Origin: a virus
IMG/VR virus record: IMGVR_UViG_3300023184_000522
Span: 1-23,613 of that record
Reading direction: 5' to 3' (one strand)
DNA length: 23,613 nucleotides
The notes under the pieces were generated by a model, which saw nothing but the letters and a program-made list of their open reading frames with translations, ran no database searches and was not told where the DNA came from. Positions within the stretch are counted from its first letter, which is position 1. Each line of letters starts with the position of its first letter. The position numbers were made by a program, and so were the translations under genes. This document shows positions 2,087 to 23,490 of this stretch, one piece after another.

Positions 2087-2872
2087 ATGAGCGATATAAA
2101 TAGCAATGAAGTCATAACCGACGAAGTGACCCTTGAAGAAGGACAATCACAGGAGGTTGTAGATGTAGTTGAGAACCTTAGTCAAGAAGAAATTGACTTA
2201 CTTCCAGTTGATGAGTATGGAGACAAATATGTTTCCGTACAGGTTAATGGTGAAGAAATTCAAGTTCCTCTTAAAGAGGCGCTTTCTGGATACCAGCGTC
2301 AAGCGGATTATACCCGTAAGACACAGGAACTCAGTGAGCAACGGCGACAAGTGCACTTTGGTGCTGCTTTGCAGGAAGCCTTGCAAAACGACCCTAATGG
2401 AACCTTGGCACTCCTTTCACAACATTATGGAGTACAGCAGACACCTTCTGAAGAAGAAGACCTGTATATGGACCCTGTTGAAAAGCAGTACAAACACCTT
2501 GAACAACGAATCCAAATTTTTGAACAACAAAAAGCAATGGACCAGTTGGAAAAGACTGTTGAATCGCTGTCAAAACGATACGGCTCGGATTTTGATGCCA
2601 ATGAAGTTGTTTCCAAAGCATTAGCAATTGGTTCAACTGATTTAGAATCTATCTACAAACAAATTGCATTTGACCGTGTTTATGAACAATCTGCTGTTGC
2701 TCGTCAAGAAAAGGCGAAGCGAGAAGAAGATAAGCAGAAAGTTACACAAGCAAAACGTCAGGTGTCAGTTGTTTCTGGTGGTTCATCAGCAAAGTCCGCA
2801 GATGTGTCAGCAAAACCAATCACATCATTGCGAGATGCTTTTGAAGCCGCAAAACGGCAACTTAATGTCTAG
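2087..2872 (+). CDS. Capsid scaffolding / assembly protein
   Basis: The 261-residue protein has an acidic N-terminus (about residues 1-60, rich in Glu, Asp and Val). A central region, about 75-210, is strongly helical and rich in Gln, Glu and Lys, and probably coiled coil (for example YTRKTQELSEQRRQ). The C-terminus is short and basic (FEAAKRQLNV at the end). This acidic-coil-basic layout and the position between portal and major capsid genes are those of scaffolding proteins, which template procapsid assembly through a basic C-terminal contact with the coat protein and then leave or are degraded. The start is set by GGAGG at 2075-2079, 7 nt before ATG. The protein has no cysteine. Sequence alone does not recall a named subfamily; the call rests on composition and gene order. 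Confidence 0.82.
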   Translation: MSDINSNEVITDEVTLEEGQSQEVVDVVENLSQEEIDLLPVDEYGDKYVSVQVNGEEIQVPLKEALSGYQRQADYTRKTQELSEQRRQVHFGAALQEALQNDPNGTLALLSQHYGVQQTPSEEEDLYMDPVEKQYKHLEQRIQIFEQQKAMDQLEKTVESLSKRYGSDFDANEVVSKALAIGSTDLESIYKQIAFDRVYEQSAVARQEKAKREEDKQKVTQAKRQVSVVSGGSSAKSADVSAKPITSLRDAFEAAKRQLNV

Positions 2873-2883
2873 CGTTTAACCCC

Positions 2884-2889
2884 AAGGAG
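2884..2889 (+). promoter_or_regulatory. Strong Shine-Dalgarno site of the capsid gene
   Basis: AAGGAG lies 8 nt before the capsid ATG. The surrounding leader (CCAAGGAGAAAATAAT) is nearly the same as that of the next gene, which suggests matched high-level translation of two abundant particle proteins. Confidence 0.8.
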
Positions 2890-2897
2890 AAAATAAT

Positions 2898-3836
2898 ATG
2901 GTCGCTGCAAACAGCAACTTTGATAATCTATTAACAACAACACTTGCGAACTATCGTTCGCAACTTACGGACAACGTATTTACGGCACGTCCACTTACTT
3001 ACACCTTGATGGAAAAGGGTCGCATTCGTATGCTTAACGGCGGTACGAAAATTGTAGAACCTCTCATCTACGGTCAGAACTCAACTGTCGCTTCGTACAG
3101 TGGTTATGACTCGTTGTCTCTTGCACCGCAAGAAGGCATCTCGGCTGCAGAATACGATTGGAAGCAGTACGCTGCTTCAATCGCAATTAGCGGTATTGAA
3201 GAAGCAAAGAACAACGGTGAACAAGAAATCATTAACCTTTTGGAAGCAAAGATTATGCAGGCTGAAGAGTCAATGCGTGAGTCTTTCAACCAAATGTTCT
3301 TCTCCGATGGAACTGGCAACAGTTCAAAAGACTGGAACGGTCTTGGTAACTTGGTTGAATCCGGCAACACTGTTGGTGGAATTGACTCAAGCACTTACAC
3401 ATGGTGGAAGTCATACGAAGAGAACACTGCAACTGCTTTGACTCTTGCTCAAATGGCAACAGCCTACAACAGCGTTTCGGTTGGTAATGACCACCCAGAC
3501 ACCTTGTTGACAACTCAGACTTTGTTTGAGAAGTACGAAGCATTGCTTCAACCAAACCTCCGTTACACGGACACCAAGACTGCAGATGCTGGATTCCAGA
3601 ACCTATTGTTCAAGGCTGCTCCTGTAATGTACGACGTGCATTGCACCGCTGGCGTGTTCTACTTCCTAAACAGCAAGTACATCACTCTCGTTGGTCACTC
3701 AAACAAGTGGTTTGCTCAGACTGAGTTCATTAAGCCAGAAGACACAGATGCTCGTTATGCGCTCATCATGTGCTACGGAAACTTGACTGTACGTAACCGT
3801 GCAAAGCAAGGCAAACTGACCGCTAAGACAGCCTAA
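2898..3836 (+). CDS. Major capsid protein
   Basis: This 312-residue protein is the likely shell subunit. It sits just after the scaffold and has the best ribosome site of the region. The N-terminal part (LLTTTLANYRSQLTDNVF, about 11-28) and the motif GGTKIVEPLIYGQNS resemble major capsid proteins of the HK97 fold that start without a long cleaved arm. The middle segment AAEYDWKQYAASIAISGIEE, followed by a long Glu-rich helix (about 95-132), looks like the E-loop and spine helix region. The C-terminus is short and basic (TVRNRAKQGKLTAKTA). Two cysteines are present, in VHCTAG and IMCYGN. No frameshift or C-terminal extension is seen. Fold assignment is inference; the capsid role is well supported by context and composition. 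Confidence 0.87.
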   Translation: MVAANSNFDNLLTTTLANYRSQLTDNVFTARPLTYTLMEKGRIRMLNGGTKIVEPLIYGQNSTVASYSGYDSLSLAPQEGISAAEYDWKQYAASIAISGIEEAKNNGEQEIINLLEAKIMQAEESMRESFNQMFFSDGTGNSSKDWNGLGNLVESGNTVGGIDSSTYTWWKSYEENTATALTLAQMATAYNSVSVGNDHPDTLLTTQTLFEKYEALLQPNLRYTDTKTADAGFQNLLFKAAPVMYDVHCTAGVFYFLNSKYITLVGHSNKWFAQTEFIKPEDTDARYALIMCYGNLTVRNRAKQGKLTAKTA

Positions 3837-3853
3837 GTTAACTACTAGAAACC

Positions 3854-3859
3854 AAGGAG
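3854..3859 (+). promoter_or_regulatory. Strong Shine-Dalgarno site of the capsid-associated protein gene
   Basis: AAGGAG lies 7 nt before ATG at 3867. The shared CCAAGGAGAAA context copies the capsid leader. Confidence 0.78.
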
Positions 3860-3866
3860 AAATATT

Positions 3867-4289
3867 ATGCCACTATTAGCAAATGATACATCAGGTGCCC
3901 TTACACGCAAGCGTGTAGAAACATGGGCATCAAAAGTAGAAAAGACAACTGTTGTTGCTGCCACCGATGCAGCAACCGTTATGTCAGCAACAACACTTGC
4001 TGGAGCCGGTCACATTGTTTACACGATGACACCAACTGCAGCACGTACCTTGACCACACCAACTGGTGCGGAATTGGGTGCAGCATTTACAGATGAAGCA
4101 GCAGGAACCTCGTTTGAGTTTACTGTTGTAAACGTTGCAGCAGCAACGTATGCAATCACTGTGACTGCGGGTGCAACTGGTATTACGCTTGTTGGTGCAG
4201 CAGCAAACTTTGCGGTTGCAGCAGCAACGTCAGCAACTTATCTTGTTGTTTTCACTTCAACAACTGCGGCTTCAATCTACCGCAAGTAA
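3867..4289 (+). CDS. Ala/Thr-rich small structural protein, possible capsid decoration protein
   Basis: The 140-residue product is made almost entirely of Ala, Thr, Val and Gly, with short alternating hydrophobic stretches (TVVAATDAATVMSATTL, YAITVTAGATGITLVGAA), which suggests an all-beta protein. There are no cysteines or tryptophan-rich segments apart from ETWASK near the N-terminus. It follows the major capsid gene with a copy of the same strong ribosome site and lies just before a terminator, so it should be made at high level with the capsid. Decoration or cement proteins often sit here. I recognise no named family; a minor tail or fibre role cannot be excluded. The DNA has an internal 16-nt direct repeat, GTTGCAGCAGCAACGT, at 4134-4149 and 4215-4230, each copy encoding VAAAT. 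Confidence 0.6.
   Translation: MPLLANDTSGALTRKRVETWASKVEKTTVVAATDAATVMSATTLAGAGHIVYTMTPTAARTLTTPTGAELGAAFTDEAAGTSFEFTVVNVAAATYAITVTAGATGITLVGAAANFAVAAATSATYLVVFTSTTAASIYRK
4134..4230 (+). repeat. Pair of 16-nt direct repeats that are also inverted repeats
   Basis: GTTGCAGCAGCAACGT occurs identically at 4134-4149 and 4215-4230. The first copy sits in a perfect 7-bp stem (ACGTTGC, loop AGCA, GCAACGT, 4132-4149). It probably arises from repeating VAAAT codons in the low-complexity protein. Confidence 0.6.
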
Positions 4290-10159: not shown

Positions 10160-13100
10160 GTGTCTAATATTAATAATAGTGGTAGTGACCAACTTGCTCA
10201 AATGCTTAAAGACCTTTCTGCGGTAAAGAGTCTTAATACTGCTCCTCCTGCGACGACTGCTCAGGCAGTTCGTCAAAACGCACAGTTGGGTTTACGTGAT
10301 TATGCTTTAACCTCTATTCAGAATGCACCAAATCTTTCTGAAAGAATTACACAAATTGCTTCTGGTAAACCACAACCATCTAATGGTTTGGGTCAAACTA
10401 TTTTTGGCAACCCTGTAGCCAAAACACTTTTGGGTGCTTTGGCAGTATATGACACTCCACGACGTGCAGTTATTTCTGGTATTAGGGAAATTGCTGATGT
10501 CCTAGACAGTGACCCAAATACACAGGCAAAGTTCAGTGACTTTATTACTCACACAAAAGACCCTGCTTATGGTTTCGGTACTGCTTTTCCGATTAGCGGT
10601 TGGAAGGGAAGAATCATTGGTGCTTTTGGAGACATTCTTCTTGACCCTATTGCTATGGCCAATCTTGGTACAAAGGTTGGTTCTTCTCTTATTGAGGGAA
10701 CTGAGTTGGCTACAAAAACTGTGTTTGGAAAACATTTGGTTGGTGCTGAAGCAAAAGCAAAACTTGCCGCCCAGACTGTGAAAGAAATGCGCAACATGAA
10801 TCTTGTTGATGGTGTTGCAAGGTTTAGTGAGGAAGAGATTCAAAAGATTGGTTCACAAATTGCTTCAAAGGGCAAGCAGTATGTTCCAACAGAAATTGCA
10901 ACAAAGTTTGGTATTCCAAAACCTGGCATTTACTATTTTGGTAATCGTGTTAGAGTTCCAATGTCCGGTCCAATTGCTAATGCGTTAGAGTCTGGCATTA
11001 CCAAGATGCGTCTTGGTATTGCTACTTCACGTCCTGGTGAGGCAATCTTAAACAAAATTACTCGTACTGGTGTTGGTGGTGCTCTTGCACCACTATCAGC
11101 ATCTTATGTTAAGGATGCACGTCGTGGTCTTGCGACTGGGGCATTGAGGGGTAAGGCTGTCACAGATGCTTTAAGGCTTTTGTCGTTTGATGAGAACCGT
11201 CGTATTGCTACACAGTTTGCTTCACAGAAAGCAGAACAGGCTCTTAAGCCGTTGTTTTCGGATGAAAGACTTTTGGCTTATCGTGGAACCATTTCAAAAC
11301 TTTTGGATAATCCAACTGAAGCGGTTCTTGCTTCTGCTTCTGCTGGTGAAAGAGCAGCGGCTGATGATGTAAGAAAAGTTCTTGAAGCAATGCATGTTGA
11401 TGTTGCTACAGCAATGAAAGCAATTGACCCTGGTTTTAGGATTGGAAAAGTTACAGAATACTTTCCTTGGACTTTGAGCGATGATGCCTTAAAGGCTGCA
11501 TCGGAAGAACGTAGTGTTGTTGCTGAAAGAATTTTGAAGTATTCAAAGATTGATGTTAATGATGTTTCTGGTTCTTTCAAATCAAGGAATCTTAAACTTG
11601 GTGACAATTTTTTTGGTACTGAACTTACACCAGAGTTGTTGAATGCTCAGTCAATGAATGATATTGCAAGAAAAGAACTTGGTTTTGACATGTTTGAAAC
11701 TGATGCTTTAAAAGTTCTTGCAAAGTATTCAAATCATTATGCAGAGCAGATGGGTAATGCAGCATTTTTTACTGCATTAAAATCTGAACCGGACATGATG
11801 GATTTTATTAAAACAAACTTTCAGATGTCTCCAGAGTTTCTTGATTCTCTTGATGAAGGTCGTGCTGTTGGTTTGAAGAACCTCGATAAGACTATGAAGA
11901 AGGCACAATCATCAATTGATAGTGCCGTAAAATCATATGATGATTTTCTTGTTAGGGCAGAAAAAAGAGCAACAAAAAATGAGTTGGGTCAAATTCAAAG
12001 TATTATAACTGATGCGGAAAATTATCCTAAAGCATTGAGTGACGTTAATATGTTCGCTGATGAAATGAAGGTGGCAGCACAGGAGTTGAGCGACGCTAGT
12101 GGTGCTGCCTTTGGCGCACAAATGGCTCAAAGTGGAATCGTATTGCATCTTCAATCAGAGATTCTTGATATTCAAAATAAACTTGGCAAGATTCCGTCAG
12201 AGATGATTGATTCTCTTACTCCTCGTGCATCAGAGGCTTTGGGAAATGCAGAGCAAATGGCCGCAGGCACATTTGCAGAAGTTACTCCAGCGTTTAGGGA
12301 ACTAGACCAGGTTCAACAAATGAAGTTGGCTAAAGAAAAAGTTGATGGTCTTAGCAAACAGTTGAATAGTTTGTATGACAAGTTTCAGAAACTTAATTCC
12401 TTTCACAATGAGTTTGGCAATATTAACAATCATATTGATTATGCACAAGGTGTACATAATGGAACATCTTTTGATAAGGCTCTTCTTGACAGTATGGGGT
12501 ATAAGTACTATCAAGATGTTTACGAGAAAGAACCAATCAAATTAACTAAGGGTAAGTTACAGCAGGCTGATGTACGTAATTTGTGGAGTGGTGCTGCTCA
12601 AGAAAATCCGACCATTGCTATGGTTAAACAAAAACTTGACCCACTTGGTATTATCAAACAAAATAGATTAATGAACATGACAATTGATGATGTTAAAAGC
12701 ACATTGATTCGTTCTACAACAACATCTGACAATATGCTTTCTCTTCAAGAGGCTACTGCTTGGATGATTGCACGAGAAATTAAATATAATCCATCGCTTG
12801 CATACGCAATAGCAGGTGGTGTTGGTTCAGATATTATTCCTATTGAATTAAAAAAAGGAACAGATGAACTTCTTGGAAGAATAAATAAACTCAATCAGTT
12901 AAATGAACAAGCATCATATATGAATGGTGTTTTGAAGCAGATAAATATTACTCCATCTGATTTGGAAATGATTGATGGTGCTGTTGTTGAACGCACTGGA
13001 ACCAAATTTAACTTTGTTGAAGACAAAGAGTTTCATGATTTGATTTCTCAAATCAATGAAAAGAATAGTCAAATAAATGATGCACTTCTTGGTTCACAAG

Positions 13101-16100
13101 ATTTGTTTGAGAAGTCACCACTTATTGGTATTGAACAAAGTTTCTCTCACAACTTTGGTAATCGCACTGGGTTGATGAGCGCACAAGAAGTTGATGGTCT
13201 TTCAATTGCTCTTGATAGTTCTGGTTATTCAGACATTGCACAGATTGTTGATGAAAGACAAGGTGTCCTTACATTTGAGCAAGCAAAACAAGTTTTGGCT
13301 GGCTACAAAGAACAAGAACTTATTACCATGTCTGATACCTACAAGGGAACTGCTTCTGCTAGTCAAATCTCAGAACTCAAAGAAGAAGTTGTTGCTTTAG
13401 AAAAAAGAAAAAATGCTATCTACGGTTCAATGAATGAACAACGTAGAACAGCACATGAAGCGTTGCAACGCTCTGGTGGTTATGAAGACTTTGTGAAAGA
13501 ATATTCTGATGCCGCATTAGAGATGTACATGTATTCGGAATCTTCATTGCAGTTTAGGAGAATACAGGAAGTTTGGGCACCATTTGGAATGACACCAGAT
13601 ATGGGTATTTGGACAAGTATTCGTTCAAACATCGCAGCAAACTTACACAACAATGCTGTTGAGTTTGAACAAAGTTTCAATAAAGCAATTGACGAGTTGC
13701 AGGCTGTCCAGGTTGTTGTTCAGGCTTCTCCTGCTGGGGACCAGTATGGTGTTCTTCGTGATGAGATGAACAAGTTGTTTGATGACCCTGAGCGTGGCAA
13801 GCGTCTTCGCAGACACTTCCCACAGTTTGAGGTAATTCTTAACAAACCTAATTTGGCTGAGAACGCACGTCTTATGGCTGCAGAGCCAGAAGTTGCCCTC
13901 ATACAGGCGCAACTTCAGGATATGCACTTTCAGTTGCGTTATAAGTCTGAATCAGGAAGTGTTACTGGTAGTGGTAGGAGAACACAAAATGCTTCTATGG
14001 TTACTGGTAATGCGAGAATTAGTGAAACAGATGCTGAAAAAACAGCAGGTCAAATGCGAGCAATGCGCATGTCCTCAACTCTTTCTCCTGATGCATTAGC
14101 AGCAAGAATTCAATCTGGTAAGGCTACTCCAAAACAAATTATTTCCGATATTAGAGAATTACTTGCTGAGGGTATTACACCAACTTTGCCTTCTGTTGCG
14201 GATGATGTTGCTAAAAAATCTGTTAAAACAGAATTTATTGACCCAAAAGAGTTTGAAACTGTTCTTAATAGTTTGGAGCAAAACTATGAGCGTATTGCAC
14301 AAAGGGTAAAGAGTAATCAGAAACTTGCAAGACAGCAACTTAAGGCTGCTGGTATTGCTTCTGTTGCTACTTCTACTGCTTTGGGTATTACACAAAAAGC
14401 AAAAGAGGCTGGAATTACTTATGGTTTTGCTGGTTCTTTTAGTGATGCTATTCGTCCATCTAGTTCTGCCACAAAGGTAAGAAACTTCTTTGGTGATTTG
14501 ATTGGTGGAACATTTACATATTCAAAAGTTGGTGATGTTCAACAACGTGTGATTGATACTGAGGGCCGTGAGGCACGACAGGCAGCAAGAATTATCGAAA
14601 GAACATTTGCCGATTCTTATGCTGGAAAAACTAAAGCATATATTTCTCAAAGAAAATCTGCTTTACGAAATGTTATGGATGTTAATTTCCCAGTAAACGA
14701 ACAGATGCTTTCTGAAAATATTGTTCCAGGTTTAAGTGGTGTTCGTAATGCTGGAGATATTAAGAACGGTCCTTTGGCTTATGCTGACATGTTGGAAGAA
14801 AGCGCAACAAGGCTTATTCGAGAAATTGCTCAGGATGAGAATTTCTCCAAACAGATACAAAGAATTGGTATTGATATTGAATCAATGAGAAAAGGTATTC
14901 CTTTAACCGATGAACAGATTTCTTTGCTTGACCAATTGTGGGAACAACAACCGGTTAACGTAAAAAATGGTACTGGTTCTGGTTTGTTTAGATTTGTTGA
15001 TGCAGAAAAAAACATTATTGATACTCTTCCAAAACAACTTCAAGATAAAGTTTATGCTTATCGTGAGATGAAGATTAATGTGGCAAGAATCCAGAATGAT
15101 GAATTCATGCCAACTGCACAGGCTGACCAGTTGTTGCATCGTGTTATTGCTGAACTTGCTCCACTTGATTTGCACTTAATTCATGATGCTGCTGGTGCAA
15201 AATCTTTTGACCCATTTTCTACTTTTGGTCAACAGATTTGGAACAAGGGTCGTCCTGGTGTTGTGGATATTTCTGGTAATCCTATTTTAAATAATGTTGA
15301 TTCAAGTTTGTTGGATACACATTTTGCCAACTGGGATAAACCTGCTCGTGCTCCACAGGGTTTGAATCATAAGATTTATCAAATGGAAGAAGTTCCATTT
15401 AATGCAAATTCTTTCACAGTTGACAAGACTACTGGCAGAGAAATTTCTGGTCTTATCTTTTTGGATAAAGATGGTGTTGTTATTCGTGATTCTATTGATG
15501 GTGAAACATCATTTCAACAAGCACGAAACATGTATAACAGGCGTGAACCAATTACGGTTTTAAAACCAATTGAGTCAAGAGGATTGTTGGAGAGTGAGTT
15601 TATCAACAACGAATCCAAGTCTCTTCAGAATGCAAAAGTAAGAAGCGGTGACATTTACAACCCTGCCAAGACGTGGGTGTTCCTTCCATCTGAGGGCGCT
15701 GTAACCGATTCTGTTAGCAAAGTTATTGTTAAAGATTCTTTACCAGAGATTGCTGTAAAACTTCCAATTAATCAACGTAGTGGTAGTTCAATGGCGTTTT
15801 CTCATCCAGTTGGTATTAACGGAAGACCTCTGTCTTTTACCCCACAGGAAACTAAAGCATTGTTTAGTCCCCCAATTGTGAAAGATGAATTGACTGTTTC
15901 TCAACTTGAAAAACAAATTGAACAACTTGAAAGACAGAAACCAACTATTTCTCGTTATTCATCTAAAAAGGATAAGGCTCTTGTTAATAGTATTGATAAG
16001 AAGATTGAGCCACTAAAGAAGGCTATTAACGATATTTTTGAGCGACCTATTGATGTTAAACAGATTCCACAATTGCAACGTGAAATAAAAGATTTAGAAG

Positions 16101-19042
16101 CAAAGATTCCACAATCAAGACTTAAGGCTCGTGGTGGTGCACGGAAAGAAATGGAAAGAATTTTCCATGAAATAGAAATTCGTCAAATGCAAATTGATGC
16201 CATTCGTGCTAGACCTTCTGCTGAAGCAAAGGTCCAAACAATGATTAATCTTGTGACGGATAATGCTGACATTGCTTACCATCTTGGTCTTGTTAAGAGG
16301 TATGGAGACCTTCCCGATGACCCTGTGAAAGCAATCAGGAAAATGGTTAGTGGAATGATTCATTCAACTTCACCAGATGGTATTCCTGTTGGCGTTGCCG
16401 AAGATGTAATTAAACTTCGTAAGTCAATGGTGTCTAGTAAGTTTCAATCATCGTATTCCGGTCAACTCATGGATGAACTTACAAAGGCTGAGTCCGAAAT
16501 TAAGCAAACACAGTTTGCGGAATTTCGTAATGATGTCAAAACAAAATTGGGACTGATTGGCGACCAACAAAGAGAAATTAAAAATATCCGTAATGAGTGG
16601 GATGCTGGTTCACAGACTGCTGACTTGATTGAATCAATTCAGACGGACATCAAGAATGCTGGAAAAGATTTAATTAATCAAGATGGTGGTTCAGTATTTA
16701 CTAGACCAGCAATTTCTGATGTTGCTATGCCTGAGCGTTCTATCACATTGTTGCGTTCTGATATTCGTGACGCAGAATCCGAGATTCGTTCCTTGCAGTC
16801 TCAGAAGAACTCTTTCACTAGTGAACTTAATAAGTTGAGCAAACTTAACAATCTCACCGAAGACCAGTTGGCACGTATTGATGAAATTACTTCTAGAATC
16901 AATCCATCTTTTGATGCAAGGATTCTTGAAAAACAACAATTAATTAATGGTGCTAAATCAACCATTGATTCTGTTGGTAGAAGTATTGATACAAAAACTG
17001 TTCAAGAAGTATTGCAAACTGCTGAACAAATTAAGAACGCTAAGTTAAACAATGCTGTTAAGTATGTTCGTGGTTCTAAGGAAACACTCACAAAAGTGAG
17101 AATGGAATTTGGTGAACTTTCTCCACAGTATAGAACTTATAGAGATTTGCTTATTATTTTGACTAGCGAAAAAACTGCTTTCGATGAATTGCAAGCAGCA
17201 CAAAAAACCATGTCTAGTATCATTTCTCCAGATGCTGCTCGTAGTAAGTTCCGTTCTGCAGCAGAGGCATACAATCAAGCAAAAACAAAGTTTGACATGA
17301 TTGCTTACAGCAAGGATTGGGCTGAGACACCGGCTTTGGCTAATGCTTCTGCACAGTTGGAGAATGTAAAATTGTTTAGAAATAAACTTGCTACTATCAA
17401 AAATATTTCTGAAACAAATCTTCCTGATGCAATCAGAGAGTTTGATTTGTTTGTTAAAGAAGCAGAACCAATTATGGAAAGTTTGAACAATGGTTCTATT
17501 CCAGAAAACTTGAGGATGATTTTAACTCATCAAGTTGAAACAGCAACTGCGTATCATGCAGCAACACTGCAGTACGGTGAAGCAAATACTCGAGCAATGG
17601 TTGCTAAGGGTATTGACATGATGTATAAGAATATGAAGCCACCAACTTCTGGTTATTCTTCACTTCCTTGGGCTGCGCCTATTGGTACTGTTCGTAAAAC
17701 AGAAGACCAAGTTATTAATGGTGTTGAAATTTTGAAAGAGTTTAATAAGGGTTGGGTTGCAATTGGGGAAAAGTTCCCCAATATGCAGATTAGTCCTGAA
17801 CTTGCAGAGATATTTAATAATGGTCACAGATTGCGCGACCCTTTGATTGTGAAAGAACTCTCGAAGTTCTTGGGTTCTTACACAAGGTTTTTTAAAGCGT
17901 ATGCAACATTGTCTCCTGGCTTCCATGTTCGCAACTCTCTCGCAAACGGAATGGCATTATTCTTTGGTGGTGGAAACCCAATTAACCTTGCTGAAGGATT
18001 GCAGGTTTCCATTAAGTGGAATAAAGCAATTGAAAATGGTTGGTCTTGGGAGAGGTTCTTGAAGACTCTTCCAGCAGAGCAGGCTCGTAATGCTGAAGTT
18101 GCACGTATGTCTGTTGCAGCATCCGGTGGTGGTATGTACAGCGATGTTGCAAACGAATTAAGCAGGAGTGGTCGTTTGACAACTAACAAGGTCACAAATA
18201 CTTCAAGGAAGTATGGTGAACTTGCAGACAACCATGTGAGATTTATGTTTGGTTATGACGCTGGAAAACAAGGCATGGATTACAGCATGGCTGCAGCAAG
18301 AACCAAACGATACTTTGTTGATTACATGGATATGTCAGACCTTGACAAAGTTATGAAACAAATTGTTCCGTTCTGGATGTGGACATCAAGAAACCTTCCA
18401 ACACAAATTACTAACATGTGGTTGAATCCAAAACCATATTTGATTTACAATTCAATCAAACGAAACATTAGTGATGATAGTGATTCGAGTCTTGTTCCAT
18501 CATACTTGAAAGAAATGGGAGCATTTAAACTTCCATTTGGGGACAATCTTTTCTTGAGTCTTGATACAGGTTTCACAAATGTTGACAGACAAATTGGTGA
18601 GTTGAGAGACCCTGCTAGGTTGATGCAAAACTTAAACCCATTGCTGCGTCTTCCAATTGAACTTGCTGGTGGAAGACAGTTGTATAACAACAGACAGTTT
18701 AGCACGACACCAGTTGAGGTAAGTGGTGGTGTTGGTGGAGCGCTTCAGCCGTTGCTTCAGGCTCTTGGTATGGGTCAAACAAGTTCTACTGGAAAGAAGT
18801 TTGCCAATGATAAGGCTCTCTACACTGCTAGAAGTTTGTTCCCAATGCTTGGTACTGCGGAAAGACTGTCGCCATCAATTGGACAGTACGCAGACCGTGG
18901 TACCGCTAATGCGTGGGCAGGATTTATGGGTTCGCCAGTTAAGCAAATAACACCAGAAATGCAGGCTAGTGCATTGGCTGCACTACAACGACAGATTCAA
19001 CAACAAGTAGCGTCTAATAACGCTGTGGAAGGACAACCATGA
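10160..19042 (+). CDS. Giant 2960-residue virion protein, predicted ejected internal protein
   Basis: One unbroken ORF fills 8.9 kb. It starts at GTG 10160, 5 nt after AAAGGA. The N-terminal 240 residues include FGDILLDP (156-163), a motif I associate with very large phage structural proteins. Mostly soluble, helical sequence follows, with probable coiled coils near 575-750, 1911-2022 and 2191-2278. The last 450 residues are better conserved in character: SPGFHVRNSLANG near 2585-2597, then FVDYMDMSDLDKVM and PFWMWTSRNLP from 2737. A RN..N segment followed by PFxxWxRN resembles the end of the large polyvalent phage proteins. I see no signal peptide, clear membrane span, or complete enzyme motif, and no cysteine in the whole chain. 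It probably travels in the capsid and enters the host with the DNA. The enzymatic activity, if any, is unknown. Confidence 0.85.
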   Translation: MSNINNSGSDQLAQMLKDLSAVKSLNTAPPATTAQAVRQNAQLGLRDYALTSIQNAPNLSERITQIASGKPQPSNGLGQTIFGNPVAKTLLGALAVYDTPRRAVISGIREIADVLDSDPNTQAKFSDFITHTKDPAYGFGTAFPISGWKGRIIGAFGDILLDPIAMANLGTKVGSSLIEGTELATKTVFGKHLVGAEAKAKLAAQTVKEMRNMNLVDGVARFSEEEIQKIGSQIASKGKQYVPTEIATKFGIPKPGIYYFGNRVRVPMSGPIANALESGITKMRLGIATSRPGEAILNKITRTGVGGALAPLSASYVKDARRGLATGALRGKAVTDALRLLSFDENRRIATQFASQKAEQALKPLFSDERLLAYRGTISKLLDNPTEAVLASASAGERAAADDVRKVLEAMHVDVATAMKAIDPGFRIGKVTEYFPWTLSDDALKAASEERSVVAERILKYSKIDVNDVSGSFKSRNLKLGDNFFGTELTPELLNAQSMNDIARKELGFDMFETDALKVLAKYSNHYAEQMGNAAFFTALKSEPDMMDFIKTNFQMSPEFLDSLDEGRAVGLKNLDKTMKKAQSSIDSAVKSYDDFLVRAEKRATKNELGQIQSIITDAENYPKALSDVNMFADEMKVAAQELSDASGAAFGAQMAQSGIVLHLQSEILDIQNKLGKIPSEMIDSLTPRASEALGNAEQMAAGTFAEVTPAFRELDQVQQMKLAKEKVDGLSKQLNSLYDKFQKLNSFHNEFGNINNHIDYAQGVHNGTSFDKALLDSMGYKYYQDVYEKEPIKLTKGKLQQADVRNLWSGAAQENPTIAMVKQKLDPLGIIKQNRLMNMTIDDVKSTLIRSTTTSDNMLSLQEATAWMIAREIKYNPSLAYAIAGGVGSDIIPIELKKGTDELLGRINKLNQLNEQASYMNGVLKQINITPSDLEMIDGAVVERTGTKFNFVEDKEFHDLISQINEKNSQINDALLGSQDLFEKSPLIGIEQSFSHNFGNRTGLMSAQEVDGLSIALDSSGYSDIAQIVDERQGVLTFEQAKQVLAGYKEQELITMSDTYKGTASASQISELKEEVVALEKRKNAIYGSMNEQRRTAHEALQRSGGYEDFVKEYSDAALEMYMYSESSLQFRRIQEVWAPFGMTPDMGIWTSIRSNIAANLHNNAVEFEQSFNKAIDELQAVQVVVQASPAGDQYGVLRDEMNKLFDDPERGKRLRRHFPQFEVILNKPNLAENARLMAAEPEVALIQAQLQDMHFQLRYKSESGSVTGSGRRTQNASMVTGNARISETDAEKTAGQMRAMRMSSTLSPDALAARIQSGKATPKQIISDIRELLAEGITPTLPSVADDVAKKSVKTEFIDPKEFETVLNSLEQNYERIAQRVKSNQKLARQQLKAAGIASVATSTALGITQKAKEAGITYGFAGSFSDAIRPSSSATKVRNFFGDLIGGTFTYSKVGDVQQRVIDTEGREARQAARIIERTFADSYAGKTKAYISQRKSALRNVMDVNFPVNEQMLSENIVPGLSGVRNAGDIKNGPLAYADMLEESATRLIREIAQDENFSKQIQRIGIDIESMRKGIPLTDEQISLLDQLWEQQPVNVKNGTGSGLFRFVDAEKNIIDTLPKQLQDKVYAYREMKINVARIQNDEFMPTAQADQLLHRVIAELAPLDLHLIHDAAGAKSFDPFSTFGQQIWNKGRPGVVDISGNPILNNVDSSLLDTHFANWDKPARAPQGLNHKIYQMEEVPFNANSFTVDKTTGREISGLIFLDKDGVVIRDSIDGETSFQQARNMYNRREPITVLKPIESRGLLESEFINNESKSLQNAKVRSGDIYNPAKTWVFLPSEGAVTDSVSKVIVKDSLPEIAVKLPINQRSGSSMAFSHPVGINGRPLSFTPQETKALFSPPIVKDELTVSQLEKQIEQLERQKPTISRYSSKKDKALVNSIDKKIEPLKKAINDIFERPIDVKQIPQLQREIKDLEAKIPQSRLKARGGARKEMERIFHEIEIRQMQIDAIRARPSAEAKVQTMINLVTDNADIAYHLGLVKRYGDLPDDPVKAIRKMVSGMIHSTSPDGIPVGVAEDVIKLRKSMVSSKFQSSYSGQLMDELTKAESEIKQTQFAEFRNDVKTKLGLIGDQQREIKNIRNEWDAGSQTADLIESIQTDIKNAGKDLINQDGGSVFTRPAISDVAMPERSITLLRSDIRDAESEIRSLQSQKNSFTSELNKLSKLNNLTEDQLARIDEITSRINPSFDARILEKQQLINGAKSTIDSVGRSIDTKTVQEVLQTAEQIKNAKLNNAVKYVRGSKETLTKVRMEFGELSPQYRTYRDLLIILTSEKTAFDELQAAQKTMSSIISPDAARSKFRSAAEAYNQAKTKFDMIAYSKDWAETPALANASAQLENVKLFRNKLATIKNISETNLPDAIREFDLFVKEAEPIMESLNNGSIPENLRMILTHQVETATAYHAATLQYGEANTRAMVAKGIDMMYKNMKPPTSGYSSLPWAAPIGTVRKTEDQVINGVEILKEFNKGWVAIGEKFPNMQISPELAEIFNNGHRLRDPLIVKELSKFLGSYTRFFKAYATLSPGFHVRNSLANGMALFFGGGNPINLAEGLQVSIKWNKAIENGWSWERFLKTLPAEQARNAEVARMSVAASGGGMYSDVANELSRSGRLTTNKVTNTSRKYGELADNHVRFMFGYDAGKQGMDYSMAAARTKRYFVDYMDMSDLDKVMKQIVPFWMWTSRNLPTQITNMWLNPKPYLIYNSIKRNISDDSDSSLVPSYLKEMGAFKLPFGDNLFLSLDTGFTNVDRQIGELRDPARLMQNLNPLLRLPIELAGGRQLYNNRQFSTTPVEVSGGVGGALQPLLQALGMGQTSSTGKKFANDKALYTARSLFPMLGTAERLSPSIGQYADRGTANAWAGFMGSPVKQITPEMQASALAALQRQIQQQVASNNAVEGQP

Positions 19043-20103: not shown

Positions 20104-20272
20104 TTCTTTTTTTCCTTTTCTTATTAGCAACATATATGAACCCGTAGGGCATACCGTTTTCCGATATTCCTTGACCCACAGTAACGTCGCCGTAATGCGC
20201 CGCAAGAATCCGAGCAACCGTATGCGGGCTAACCTCAACATCAAAACCCACCGTTATCTGTCTCGTCGTCAA
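20096..20272 (-). CDS. Hypothetical 58-residue protein with a basic tail
   Basis: I chose the TTG start at 20272 because AGAAAGG lies 7 nt upstream; TTG at 20278 is too close to that site. The gene starts 32 nt inside the sigma-like gene and overlaps the next gene by 8 nt. The product has a compact centre (VSPHTVARILAAHYGDV, then ISENGMPYGFIYVANK) and ends with KKRKKRNV. The strongly basic end suggests nucleic-acid or membrane contact. This frame looks more protein-like than the competing leftward frame over the same bases. No family is recognised. Confidence 0.55.
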   Translation of the reverse strand: MTTRQITVGFDVEVSPHTVARILAAHYGDVTVGQGISENGMPYGFIYVANKKRKKRNV

Positions 20273-20549
20273 AGCCAAGCCTTTCTCTAATTATTGGATG
20301 TTGTGAAAGAATTAATTGTAGTCGCTCGTATGCTACGTTGCGTAAACGCCAAGCATGAGTTTTTGTGACACCAAGTCGTTCGCCAAGTTCTTGTAGCGAA
20401 ATCATTTCGGAGTTGAGAGCATCAATAATAAATTGGTCTTGCTCATCAAGTTGCTCTATACAAGAAGCGATTGCTTCTCGGAGCGGTTGCAGTTCTTGGA
20501 CTGATTCAATAGTTGCTTCACCGATTCCAGCCATCATTAAGGCTTCCAT
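20241..20549 (-). CDS. Sigma-70 region-4-like helix-turn-helix protein
   Basis: The 102-residue product has the layout of a lone sigma region 4. An N-terminal helix pair is followed by REAIASCIEQLDEQDQFIID (24-43), where sigma factors have a helix reading LP.reR.Vl. The helix-turn-helix is SLQELGERLGVTKTHAWRLR (51-70), followed by AYERLQLIL. There is no region 2, so it cannot melt a promoter alone. It may act as an anti-sigma-like or co-factor protein, redirect host RNA polymerase, or be a simple DNA-binding regulator. The ATG at 20549 is uncertain: a strong GAGGAGG lies 19 nt upstream with a small hairpin between, while ATG at 20537 or 20534 has GGAAG at suitable spacing. Confidence 0.72.
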   Translation of the reverse strand: MEALMMAGIGEATIESVQELQPLREAIASCIEQLDEQDQFIIDALNSEMISLQELGERLGVTKTHAWRLRNVAYERLQLILSQHPIIRERLGFDDETDNGGF

Positions 20550-20613: not shown

Positions 20614-21051
20614 TTATTCTTCAGAGTCGTACTCGGGGTTAATCATCATGTCCATTACTTCTTCGGGAAGTAGTAGGAATCCTTTTGTTGGGTTGGTTGA
20701 GTTCCAAGCAAACTTTTTTAGTCTGCCTAGTGGAAGTGTTTGAATATATCGCTTCAGTCTGTCAACTGAAACAGCAATCATTGCACCATCGAGACAGTAG
20801 ATATACACCCACCACTTTGCTTCAGTAACAAACAGTCCAGAATCTTTCCAACCTGTTTCTCTTGGATTCTGTTGTGTCTCCACAACCATGCGACCGTTTC
20901 GGTAACGGTCTGTCTTCACTTCAAACGAACCGTCTGCGATTGATTGTAAAAAGTTTCTTGTTAGTTCTTCACCTTTGCTTCCGAACTTCATGTCGTCTGC
21001 AAAGTTGTATCTGCGTTCTGCTGGAAAGTCCCACCTAGATTCCTTCATCAT
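20614..21051 (-). CDS. PD-(D/E)XK-like nuclease
   Basis: The 145-residue product has the layout of a small restriction-endonuclease-fold nuclease. An early helix contains GSKGEELTRNFLQ (24-36, with E28 or E29 as candidate). DGSFEVK follows, with D40, E44 and K46 as the D..E-x-K core, then TDRYRNGRMVVETQ and EAKWWVYIYCLDGAMIAVSV. A helical end follows. The fold is used by Holliday junction enzymes, single-strand nucleases and restriction enzymes. The neighbours (RusA, primase, helicase) point to DNA processing during replication or to host DNA breakdown. GGAG lies 4 nt before ATG 21051 and 7 nt before ATG 21048; either may start. It overlaps the upstream gene by 17 nt. The nuclease fold is likely; the substrate is unknown. 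Confidence 0.68.
   Translation of the reverse strand: MMKESRWDFPAERRYNFADDMKFGSKGEELTRNFLQSIADGSFEVKTDRYRNGRMVVETQQNPRETGWKDSGLFVTEAKWWVYIYCLDGAMIAVSVDRLKRYIQTLPLGRLKKFAWNSTNPTKGFLLLPEEVMDMMINPEYDSEE
20892..20910. repeat. Perfect 7-bp inverted repeat with TCGGT loop
   Basis: GACCGTT, loop TCGGT, AACGGTC, within the nuclease gene over the DRYRNG codons. It may be chance. Confidence 0.35.
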
Positions 21052-21217
21052 GACTCTCCAATACTTCTATATTTGAACCGGACATCTTGATGAGCCTACC
21101 ATCTTTACCTATTGCGACCCACGACGTGGCGTCGGGGTCACAACGACAACCTTGTAATTGATTGTGGTCATGCACAACTGTTGTGGCACACTGTCTACAC
21201 CTGATTGAGTACATCAT
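21035..21217 (-). CDS. Cys-rich mini-protein, probable zinc ribbon
   Basis: The 60-residue product begins MMYSIRC and carries C7-x2-C10 and C24-x-C26, with H16 and H18 between, followed by a beta-hairpin-like region (TSWVAIGKDGRLIKMSG) and an acidic end. Two Cys pairs at this spacing suggest a small zinc ribbon. The start at ATG 21217 is set by GGAG 5 nt upstream and by ATGA overlap with the resolvase stop; a longer TTG start at 21238 is less likely. It ends 17 nt inside the nuclease gene. Such mini-ribbons often bind nucleic acid or partner proteins, but nothing here fixes the function. Confidence 0.68.
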   Translation of the reverse strand: MMYSIRCRQCATTVVHDHNQLQGCRCDPDATSWVAIGKDGRLIKMSGSNIEVLESHDEGI

Positions 21218-21576
21218 GCTTTCTCCAAATACAAACAAACAATTTGACGGTCATCTGTGTAAGCAACACCGTTTAGCGCATCTAACACAGCCTTTGCATA
21301 GTTGTCTATGTCTCCTGTTAATTTTGTTTTTGGTCCTTCAACCAATGGGTTGTGTGTTACTGGTTCAATCATGAGTTCTGTTCCCTCTGTGGTGAAGCGC
21401 AACTTCACCGACAGAAGACCATTTTCAAATAGTGGACCTTTATATGCTTCTTTAATTTCTTTTTCATAATCCATTGTCGCTTTAGGTGTGTACGCATGAC
21501 CAGTTTTGGTTACTCGTGGTCTACCTTTTGCTTTTGGTCTTATGGTTATGTTTTGATGGTACTGAAACTTTTTCAT
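21214..21576 (-). CDS. rusA: RusA-like Holliday junction resolvase
   Basis: The 120-residue product matches RusA-type endonucleases, which bind and cut four-way DNA junctions as dimers to resolve replication and recombination intermediates. The N-terminal PKAKGRPRVTKTGHAYTP (14-31) is the usual substrate-binding lead. The catalytic block GDIDNYAKAVLDALN has D89, D91 and K95, and YTDDRQIV has D108 and D109. These correspond to the D-x-D-N-x-x-K and final Asp residues of E. coli RusA (D70, D72, K76, D91). Length is as expected. It starts by ATGA overlap with the primase stop and ends by ATGA overlap with the zinc-ribbon gene, so it is part of one coupled replication operon. Confidence 0.88.
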   Translation of the reverse strand: MKKFQYHQNITIRPKAKGRPRVTKTGHAYTPKATMDYEKEIKEAYKGPLFENGLLSVKLRFTTEGTELMIEPVTHNPLVEGPKTKLTGDIDNYAKAVLDALNGVAYTDDRQIVCLYLEKA

Positions 21577-22475
21577 GGATTAAAGTCTTCCTTGTGATTG
21601 TTGTTCTTGCCGTACACATCTTCAACTATTTTGGTTAATATTTCTACCACGTTTGGTCGTAGGTGAAACTTTCCCCAACGCTTATCTGCATCAACTATCA
21701 GGATGTATGCCATTCCGATTGGGACTCCAATGTTGCAAGCATGGTGTGCCATGCGCACCAAACTATTTGACCTGTCGTGCTTCTCATCTGGACCGTTCTT
21801 CCATGCTGTATATAGCAGCCCATCTGCATGGGTTAATGCCTCTTGCACAGAAGATGATGTTGGTAGTTCCATGACTGCTCTTTGTCTTGGACGATACTTC
21901 TCTGCTAATGGTTGCAAAAGATTTATGCTCACCCTTGACTCTTGTGCACTGTCCAAGAATTGTTTTAATGACATTGGTTCATCATCTTTCTTGAAAAGCA
22001 TGTACCTGTTATCGGGCATTGCATCAATGCCACCCGGATATGGAAGTCGGACATAGTTGCCTAGTCCGTTTGCTTGTTCCTGTTTCGGATTGACTTCCTT
22101 TGGTGGAAGTCCAATAACTTCGTGTGCAGACAAGAATGCTCTACGCATCACTGGTGCAGGAACCCAGTCATTAGCAAACACCCAAATGTGGAATCCTCTC
22201 ACAGTCTTCTCTACAAAAGATGGAATGCTTTTCATACCAAATGCAACCTGTAGGTTTCGTGCTGAGTCAAGGTCATCAACGTCAATATCGGAACATCCCC
22301 AACGGACGGATGAGCCGTCTGTTAGGGGATAGATACCGATGAGTTCTTCGCCGTACAAATGTTTGGCAAATGTTTCGTATGACACAGATGACTTTTTTGA
22401 GCCACCTTCCCATGTTCCGTATGCATCAGTTCTTCCACCAAACAGCGACATGAATTTTTCTATTGGGTCATTCAT
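21573..22475 (-). CDS. AEP (archaeo-eukaryotic primase) superfamily protein
   Basis: The 300-residue product shows the order of AEP motifs. WGCSDIDVDD has D63 and D65 as the metal-binding D-x-D. TVRGFHIWVF has H96 in the G.H.W block. NPKQ (129-132) and GLGNYVRLPYPGG (137-149) form the LGN..RLP-type segment often seen in primase-polymerases. The last 100 residues are helical and may be a helicase- or template-binding domain. It probably makes replication primers, with the helicase encoded just upstream. It starts at ATG 22475, 8 nt inside the helicase gene, and the ATG sits in an 8-bp stem of the mRNA. No helicase or zinc domain is fused. The primase call is well supported by motifs; polymerase activity is inference. 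Confidence 0.78.
   Translation of the reverse strand: MNDPIEKFMSLFGGRTDAYGTWEGGSKKSSVSYETFAKHLYGEELIGIYPLTDGSSVRWGCSDIDVDDLDSARNLQVAFGMKSIPSFVEKTVRGFHIWVFANDWVPAPVMRRAFLSAHEVIGLPPKEVNPKQEQANGLGNYVRLPYPGGIDAMPDNRYMLFKKDDEPMSLKQFLDSAQESRVSINLLQPLAEKYRPRQRAVMELPTSSSVQEALTHADGLLYTAWKNGPDEKHDRSNSLVRMAHHACNIGVPIGMAYILIVDADKRWGKFHLRPNVVEILTKIVEDVYGKNNNHKEDFNP
22295..22330. repeat. Long imperfect inverted repeat (15 bp with one bulge)
   Basis: ATCCCC (22295-22300) pairs with GGGGAT (22325-22330), and AACGGACGG (22301-22309) pairs with CCGTCTGTT (22315-22323), with one unpaired A at 22324, one G-T pair and the loop ATGAG. It lies in the primase gene, just before the D-x-D codons. It is the longest such structure I noticed in the leftward region. 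Confidence 0.6.
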
Positions 22476-22477
22476 GT
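22448..22477 (-). promoter_or_regulatory. Stem covering the primase start codon
   Basis: In the leftward mRNA ACAUGAAU (22477-22470) pairs with AUUCAUGU (22455-22448) across a 14-nt loop. The start AUG and the helicase stop are both inside the 5' arm. Ribosomes finishing the helicase gene would open it, so it could couple primase to helicase translation. Confidence 0.4.
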
Positions 22478-23490
22478 AGTAGTCCCAACTGATGGTACTG
22501 TTGTGGTAGCGCAGAGTCCAAGTCTGTTAGACGACCTGTGTGTGCATCCAGTTCAAAGTGAATGTCATCTACAAGTTGTCCAGCAGGTCGCTTGTTCTTC
22601 AGCAAGTTGATGGTCACAGTGTATTCGTGAACCTTTGCTTCGTAACGCAACTCATCGAGTCTGTCTTGTGCACGTTCAGAATGTGAACGGTCAAGTTTCT
22701 CTATGAGTTCCTGTATCTCAGCAGCAATCTGATATTTCTTGCGCCTGACACCAATGATTGATGTCGCTTGTTGTTCACCACCAAACGCACCTGATGACAT
22801 TGTGAGTTTTGCACCATCAGCACCTGCATGTCTAGATGTTTGGTGCAGAACCAACATTGGGATGTTGTGTCTGCGTCCGAACCCTTTGAGGAAGGTTGCT
22901 TTGTCGGGTACTGTCTCTCCTGCTTCTACCAAATCTAGGTAGTCAACAACTACCAAGTCAGGTACTTGCCCCCACACGTCACAGAGTTCGTTATAACCCC
23001 GTTCCATGTCTGAGGAAGTTAGTGGCTGGTCAAACACAGCGAGGTTTGGAAAGTCCTCTTCTGCTGTTTGTCGGAGCAGGTTGATGGCATCTTTGTCATC
23101 ACGGGCTACTCTCGCTTCCAGTTCTCGTGCATCAATGTTGTGGTGCATACAGGTGAGTTTGGTTAGGACGAGTTGTCTTGGCTCGTCTGGAATGAACATA
23201 GCGATGTGTTTGTCACGGTTGTTGCGAAGTGCATGAAGTAGTAAGAGCGTCTTACCACCGTGGGCAAAGCCCAACATCATACAGATTTCACCTGCCGCAA
23301 TTCCACGCATCTCTGCGTCAATTTTATCTATGCCTAAATGCACTCTCTCATTTGGTGTCTGTGCCCATCTTACGAATGAGTCAACAGAATCTGCCAACGG
23401 TGAATACAGTCGGTACTCGGATGGTGGAGCGACTTGTGGTCGCCCCACCGATTCCCAGCCCGCAGCAATTTGCTCTGCGGTCATCCTCAT
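22468..23490 (-). CDS. Replicative helicase, RecA/DnaB-type ATPase
   Basis: The 340-residue product is a RecA-fold ATPase of the DnaB/gp4 helicase class. Walker A is GFAHGGKT (74-81), Walker B is LVVVDYLDLV with D183, and a downstream sensor block is MLVLHQTSR with Q217, followed by SSGAFGGEQQATSIIGVRRK, typical of the DNA-binding loop and arginine region. The N-terminal 60 residues are short, so there is no fused primase or full DnaB N-terminal domain. It probably forms a hexameric ring that unwinds DNA 5' to 3', with the overlapping downstream AEP gene supplying primers. ATG at 23490 overlaps the upstream stop (TAATG); ATG at 23484, two codons in, is an alternative. The class is certain; the polarity is inferred from the family. 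Confidence 0.85.
   Translation of the reverse strand: MRMTAEQIAAGWESVGRPQVAPPSEYRLYSPLADSVDSFVRWAQTPNERVHLGIDKIDAEMRGIAAGEICMMLGFAHGGKTLLLLHALRNNRDKHIAMFIPDEPRQLVLTKLTCMHHNIDARELEARVARDDKDAINLLRQTAEEDFPNLAVFDQPLTSSDMERGYNELCDVWGQVPDLVVVDYLDLVEAGETVPDKATFLKGFGRRHNIPMLVLHQTSRHAGADGAKLTMSSGAFGGEQQATSIIGVRRKKYQIAAEIQELIEKLDRSHSERAQDRLDELRYEAKVHEYTVTINLLKNKRPAGQLVDDIHFELDAHTGRLTDLDSALPQQYHQLGLLHE
23423..23449 (-). repeat. 11-bp inverted repeat near the helicase start
   Basis: GGTGGAGCGAC (23423-23433), loop TTGTG, GTCGCCCCACC (23439-23449). The single A-C mismatch becomes a G-U pair in leftward RNA, so the stem is complete only in the helicase mRNA, 41 nt after its start codon. Confidence 0.5.

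Follow-up and report, generated by a model that had tools for sequence, protein, structure and literature searches.

How would a phage copy its genome when it brings a replicative-type helicase and a primase of the archaeo-eukaryotic primase (AEP) superfamily, and no DNA polymerase can be recognized among its genes? This question is raised by the IMG/VR virus record IMGVR_UViG_3300023184_000522, a stretch of 23,613 bases (23.6 kb) that is referred to here as the window. In it, a gene for a DnaB_C-type helicase is followed on the minus strand by a gene for a 300-amino-acid protein, which belongs to the AEP (Prim-Pol) superfamily by family score, motifs and predicted fold. We consider it likely that the two proteins form a primosome of the phage's own, in which a DnaB-like ring would open the fork, the AEP would prime and host DNA polymerase III (Pol III) would copy the genome. 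Relatives of the AEP are encoded in 143 IMG/VR stretches, of which the best 80 were fetched. Residue counts below refer to 81 aligned AEPs (the window and 80 loci, near-identical sequences included) and to 78 helicases.

21573 to 22475, minus strand: AEP-type primase gene, 300 amino acids, ATG start; catalytic domain at about residues 1-196, helical C-terminal domain at about 200-300
22468 to 23490, minus strand: DnaB_C-type (RecA-fold) helicase gene, 340 amino acids, ATG start
22468 to 22475, minus strand: overlap of the helicase end and the AEP start, 8 nucleotides; some overlap in 75 of 77 pairs
22281 to 22289, minus strand: AEP motif I, D63-I64-D65, metal-binding residues; both D conserved in 80 of 81, the remaining sequence gapped here
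22188 to 22196, minus strand: AEP motif II, G94-F95-H96 (small-x-His, nucleotide binding); G94 and H96 in 81 of 81
22080 to 22097, minus strand: AEP motif III, E127-V-N-P-K-Q132; E127, N129, K131 and Q132 in 81 of 81
23248 to 23271, minus strand: Walker A motif GFAHGGKT, helicase residues 74-81; G74, G79, K80 and T81 in 78 of 78

The AEP and its helicase partner

The 300-amino-acid open reading frame (ORF) matches the Pfam family AEP-TOTE (PF22548) with an E-value of 5.9e-16 and 59.2 bits, against a curated cut-off of 27, and the family is matched at E <= 0.1 in all 42 members of an alignment (A1) of the window and 41 relatives. All three motifs of the superfamily are present as they are defined in excerpts of PMC5862659 (I, hhhDhD/E; II, sxH; III, hD/E). 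The third acidic residue is E127, whose aligned counterpart in the chain of the CRISPR-associated Prim-Pol (CAPP) of Marinitoga (PDB 7nqf/7p9j) is the E of EIFPKQ. When the Protein Data Bank (PDB) was searched with phmmer, only CAPP chains were returned at a meaningful E-value (6.8e-11), and a profile raised this match to 2.4e-20. An AlphaFold2 model built from the 42-sequence alignment, with a mean predicted local distance difference test (pLDDT) score of 93.3, is predicted to contain the AEP catalytic fold: its residues 1-196 superpose on the CAPP catalytic domain with a Z-score of 23.4 over 188 residues, a root-mean-square deviation (rmsd) of 2.6 and 25% identity. Lower-ranked structure matches were H. 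pylori HP0184 (Z 11.4), Prim-PolC (10.8), the LigD polymerase (10.3) and human Pri1 (8.2). We infer that the protein synthesizes primers.

Beyond the catalytic domain lies a second, helical domain.

21576 to 21878, minus strand: C-terminal helical domain of the AEP, PriCT-1-like on weak evidence; invariant R235 and D264-x-x-W267-G-K269

Helices are predicted at residues 208-288 of the model, and R235, D264, W267, G268 and K269 are invariant among the aligned AEPs. The PriCT_1 family was weakly matched in 2 of the 42 A1 members (best E 0.0039). The primases RepB', NrS-1 and pRN1 align through AEP residue 294-296, only at an rmsd of 11-14 and Z of 5.8-7.9, and hhalign comparisons with two PriCT_1-bearing primases reached window residue 248 at most, short of the domain end. 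Kinship of this domain with PriCT-1 is plausible.

DnaB_C is the sole Pfam match of the helicase (E 2.2e-11, 44.1 bits, cut-off 27). About 50 residues precede it, and neither a DnaB N-terminal domain nor a primase domain was matched by Pfam in this protein. Among phrog profiles the DnaB-like phrog_19 ranks first (4.7e-24), followed by phrog_243 (8.6e-15) and the gp4-type phrog_239 (1.4e-9). At E <= 0.001, a 36-sequence helicase profile retrieved four sequences from the PDB, each of them a DnaB-type replicative helicase. In Foldseek searches with the helicase model DnaB was best (4.3e-15) and T7 gp4 came at rank 30 (2.4e-12); because the model is of only moderate confidence (mean pLDDT 77.6), the fold alone does not decide between the two. 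Judged by profile scores, the helicase is nearer to DnaB than to T7 gp4. An earlier note on this DNA had described an AEP-superfamily protein bearing D63-x-D65 and H96, overlapping by 8 nucleotides a separate DnaB-type helicase without a primase domain; its coordinates and overlap are exact, the residues lie where it placed them, and both protein assignments are borne out.

DNA polymerase and DnaG searches

Complete relatives of the window are larger than the window itself, at 39.2-42.1 kb. MW202803.1 (Podoviridae sp. ct52p938) was deposited as circular and complete, and exact end repeats of 123-127 bases identify 5 of the 10 fetched IMG/VR contigs as complete. Polymerase and DnaG profiles were run against up to 39 records, namely the window, MW202803.1 and, out of the 80 contigs, 37 that were chosen by length, with at least five of similar length left out; the five end-repeat-complete contigs and circular MW202803.1 are included. 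DNA_pol_A (PolA) was found in 0 of 39 records, and as a control it was matched in 6 of 6 other phages with AEP-TOTE primases and in neither MW202803.1 nor the relative G014. In 23 of the 39 records, there were no matches to DNA_pol_B (positive in 5 of 14 control genomes), to the Pol III alpha family DNA_pol3_alpha (10 of 14) or to DnaG (PF08275, DNAG_N, catalytic core; 10 of 14). The search for DNA_pol_B_2 (PF03175) also gave 0 of 23 and is uninformative, as no control genome matched either. Within the records searched, the clade formed by the window and its relatives thus appears, by profile comparison, to be without a recognizable DNA polymerase.

The gp4-type phrog_239 matches 38 of the 39 records, and every match begins at position 314 or later of the 801 profile positions, in the helicase half. 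The 39th record, G023, does match DnaB_C, a family found in all eight records of the clade that were tested (in MW202803.1 below the curated cut-off). T7 gp4 is a single chain with a DnaG-type primase and a helicase, and the earlier note had suggested that an AEP had replaced the primase half of such a protein. As it had expected, no DnaG was found elsewhere, with PF08275 in 0 of 23 records and phrog_239 represented only by its helicase half. The replacement itself is unsupported because the helicase is DnaB-like by sequence and PolA, the polymerase type of T7, is also not found (0 of 39). A T7-type gp4 that lost its DnaG half to an incoming AEP gene would account for a helicase without a primase domain with an AEP immediately after it, for the gp4-type profile matching through the helicase half, and for gp4 being among the fold matches (2.4e-12). 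We nevertheless hold it to be improbable, since phrog_19 scores far better than phrog_239 and the helicase profile finds only DnaB-type PDB sequences at E <= 0.001.

A highly diverged phage polymerase could instead lie in an unannotated gene. Twelve genomes were compared (the window, MW202803.1 and ten IMG/VR records of 38-40 kb); their ORFs were called with a simple longest-ORF picker, so that any presence count short of 12 of 12 is a minimum. ORFs of 450-550 amino acids without an assigned function do exist, namely the gene clusters cl39 and cl212 and positions 2396-3904 of MW202803.1. The DNA_pol_B_2 search lacked a control that worked. Of the large ORFs, those scanned with Pfam were cl39, which gave no match above cut-off, and the giant ORF of the window described below. 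However, cl39 occurs in 3 of 12 genomes and the other two in 1 of 12 each, so none is clade-wide, and no polymerase emerged from those profile searches whose controls worked. We consider such a hidden polymerase highly improbable.

The same searches bear on the role of the AEP, in which the earlier note saw a possible primase-polymerase. It is unlikely that the AEP is itself the replicative polymerase, which would follow the DnaB-like helicase and both prime and copy the ~39-kb genome without host Pol III, and likewise unlikely that it is the only DNA-synthesizing enzyme that the phage brings, a true primase-polymerase that needs no conventional replicase and perhaps acts without host Pol III. 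No other polymerase was found in the clade searches, and CAPP, the nearest solved relative, extends primers efficiently with dNTPs and starts primers with a ribonucleotide, according to excerpts of PMC8211822. Against this, passages of PMC5862659 conclude from the lack of proofreading that AEPs act chiefly as primases in vivo, and the protein consists of the catalytic domain and about 100 residues, with no exonuclease or other added domain matched by Pfam.

Gene pairing and proposed mechanism

The helicase orthologue lies directly upstream of the AEP gene on the same strand at 77 of 80 loci, with a spacing of -101 to +135. Measured from the first possible start codons, the frames overlap in 75 of these 77 pairs, by exactly 8 nucleotides in 11. 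Three loci show no helicase, and there the start of the AEP ORF is 56-171 bases from a contig end. The ORF picker recovered both genes in all 12 of the compared genomes, and in the window the context of the AEP gene is a replication block. This pairing speaks against a role of the AEP in repair, damage bypass or conflict, with priming left to host DnaG. The Pfam family is named after the TOTE conflict system, and excerpts of PMC10345425 and PMC8211822 describe Prim-Pols that serve repair and CRISPR elsewhere. Coupling to a replicative-type helicase at nearly every locus, mostly with overlapping frames, makes such a role quite unlikely here, as does the finding that six further phages, all with PolA, have AEP-TOTE close to helicase genes.

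In the proposed phage-encoded primosome, the DnaB-like protein would form a ring helicase that encircles and unwinds the fork, and the AEP would lay primers on the exposed strand. The helical C-terminal domain of the AEP, or contact with the helicase, may keep it at the fork. Because no phage polymerase is recognizable, extension of the primers by a host replicase is probable, and this would most likely be Pol III, as in RSF1010. The products of the RusA and exonuclease genes of the same block would probably process recombination intermediates.

Several observations weigh against this primosome. In MW202803.1, the helicase and AEP genes are ~1.8 kb apart. No helicase loader, single-stranded DNA-binding protein or origin protein was recognized among the genes scanned. 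The six end-to-end genomes contain a few ORFs of >= 400 amino acids without an assigned function. As a sign of the use of host Pol III, beta-clamp-like pentapeptides were sought in 11 gene clusters and were only scattered, in 2 of the 12 AEPs, in 1 of the 10 amidotransferase-like proteins and nowhere else. The best solved relative, CAPP, acts both as a polymerase and as a primase, and the assignment of the AEP C-terminal domain to PriCT-1 is weak.

Downstream of the AEP gene, the block continues with two further genes.

21214 to 21576, minus strand: RusA-type Holliday junction resolvase, 120 amino acids, Pfam RusA 1e-17; overlaps the AEP end by 4 nucleotides
20614 to 21051, minus strand: same-block gene matching phrog_13596 (5e-26), called in 6 of 12 genomes

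A RusA orthologue was called in 9 of 12 genomes, which is a lower bound; in MW202803.1, the ORF picker passed over the annotated portal and RusA genes in favour of other ORFs. A gene coding for 134-168 amino acids adjoins that of the helicase in 6 of 12 genomes. The exonuclease cluster is represented in the same block in 11 of 12 genomes, and the window stops before that place. The G014 copy, the only one scanned, is a PD-(D/E)XK nuclease. The plus strand of the window bears virion genes, including orthologues of the annotated major capsid, phage stabilization and head-to-tail joining (portal) proteins of MW202803.1, the last with 39% identity.

Further genes were noted in the window and its relatives. 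At 20241-20549 (minus strand), the window encodes a 102-amino-acid protein with similarity to region 4 of sigma factors (phrog_351, 1.6e-5). In the relative G025, a segment like it forms one protein with a DUF1599 nucleotide-modification domain (L102:5098-5955). In G014, a class-II glutamine amidotransferase-like gene (L086:13243-14247, minus strand; weak, below cut-off) adjoins an Amidoligase_2 gene (L086:14302-15363, minus strand; above cut-off). Clusters of these two genes were called in 10 of 12 genomes and not in MW202803.1; the window ends before them, and the G014 copies alone were scanned. A single ORF of 2960 amino acids (10160-19042, plus strand) takes up over a third of the window and has no Pfam match above the curated cut-off; in G014, G006, G021 and G025, the corresponding position among the genes is taken by ORFs of 2217-2695 amino acids.

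In a search for a host or prophage, genome contigs were scanned with the AEP and helicase profiles, giving 11 and 232 pattern matches, none of which encodes a relative; two patterns were used for each, and a host genome could be missed. Transfer RNA genes, counted as a host clue, were uninformative (0 in ten half-records of five genomes, 2 in MW202803.1). Cumulative GC skew changes direction close to where the two gene blocks meet in the genomes inspected. This was not used as evidence for an origin because transcription direction alone could produce it.

Comparison with known systems

No description of such a system was found by title or abstract in open-licence papers, which were partly sampled, and within such papers nothing was found on TOTE, on podoviruses lacking a polymerase or on a stand-alone AEP with a helicase. 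In the phage collection, MW202803.1 alone is hit at E <= 1e-5 with both proteins, at 43% identity for the helicase and 35% for the AEP. It shares capsid, tail and portal genes with the window, and its annotation already names a DnaB-like replicative helicase and a DNA primase small subunit. With its helicase as query, no relatives were found in viral contigs. Another record, MW202795.1, shows a weak portal match and has annotated DNA polymerase genes.

T7 gp4 shares the RecA-fold helicase core with the window clade, which differs in having two genes and a primase of the AEP fold. The fusion of a DnaG-type primase domain to the helicase, as in gp4, is not found in the 340-amino-acid helicase, where DnaB_C alone is matched. 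The AEP model is also matched by the BFVD entry A0A6J5NZ70 (Foldseek E 3.4e-15), a 604-amino-acid protein of an uncultured phage with a described DnaB-like C-terminal part. This predicted match hints that a single-chain AEP-DnaB fusion protein may exist.

CAPP is the best PDB match of the window AEP in both sequence and structure and shares its motifs, including the E..PKQ of motif III. The two differ in setting: passages of PMC8211822 place CAPP, with an N-terminal TPR domain, in CRISPR operons, whereas the window AEP gene stands in a phage replication block. No TPR was matched by Pfam in the window AEP, and the CAPP catalytic domain aligns with it from residue 1-3.

Six named phages, HTVC027P, SH-Ab 15497, DSL-LC04, vB_DshS-R5C, 023Pt_psg01 and Pan1, all carry AEP-TOTE in the N-terminal part of their primases. 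These primases have 509-592 amino acids and a C-terminal extension, compared with 300 amino acids in the window. As candidates for AEP-helicase fusions they were rejected, with a Walker A motif in 0 of 6. Helicase genes lie near them; of the three that were scanned, two are UvrD-type and one, in SH-Ab 15497, is SNF2-type, and the others are known by annotation only. PolA is present in 6 of 6 of these phages and DnaB_C in 0 of 6. With the 023Pt_psg01 primase as query, 589 viral-contig stretches were found to encode a relative, so the PolA-type AEP-TOTE module is common in viral contigs. These phages have PolA without DnaB_C, whereas the window clade has DnaB_C without a recognized polymerase; therefore, as far as the examined records go, the primases of one Pfam family appear to serve two alternative replication modules of phages.

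The possible novelty lies in how these features come together in one coherent clade: a compact CAPP-like AEP, a DnaB-like helicase that has no N-terminal domain, and no recognizable polymerase. If this is true, a bacterial-type ring helicase, and possibly a bacterial replicase, can accept primers from an archaeal/eukaryotic-type primase, and the pair could serve as a replication marker for environmental phages that are missed by PolA- or DnaG-based surveys. The system is a variant of a known arrangement and not a new kind of system. The RepA protein of RSF1010 is a DnaB-like ring, and this plasmid replicates with host Pol III. The pattern of the window clade, DnaB_C without a recognized polymerase, would by analogy resemble the RepB'/RepA strategy. 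Structural likeness between RepB' and the AEP model is weak (Foldseek 5.8e-5, Z 7.9, rmsd 14.2), and RSF1010 is a plasmid whereas the window clade is phage. In excerpts of PMC2200642, repA is described as the helicase, RepB' as the primase and repC as the oriV-binding protein, and it is in this provision of a separate AEP primase and a separate helicase by one mobile element that RSF1010 and the window are alike.

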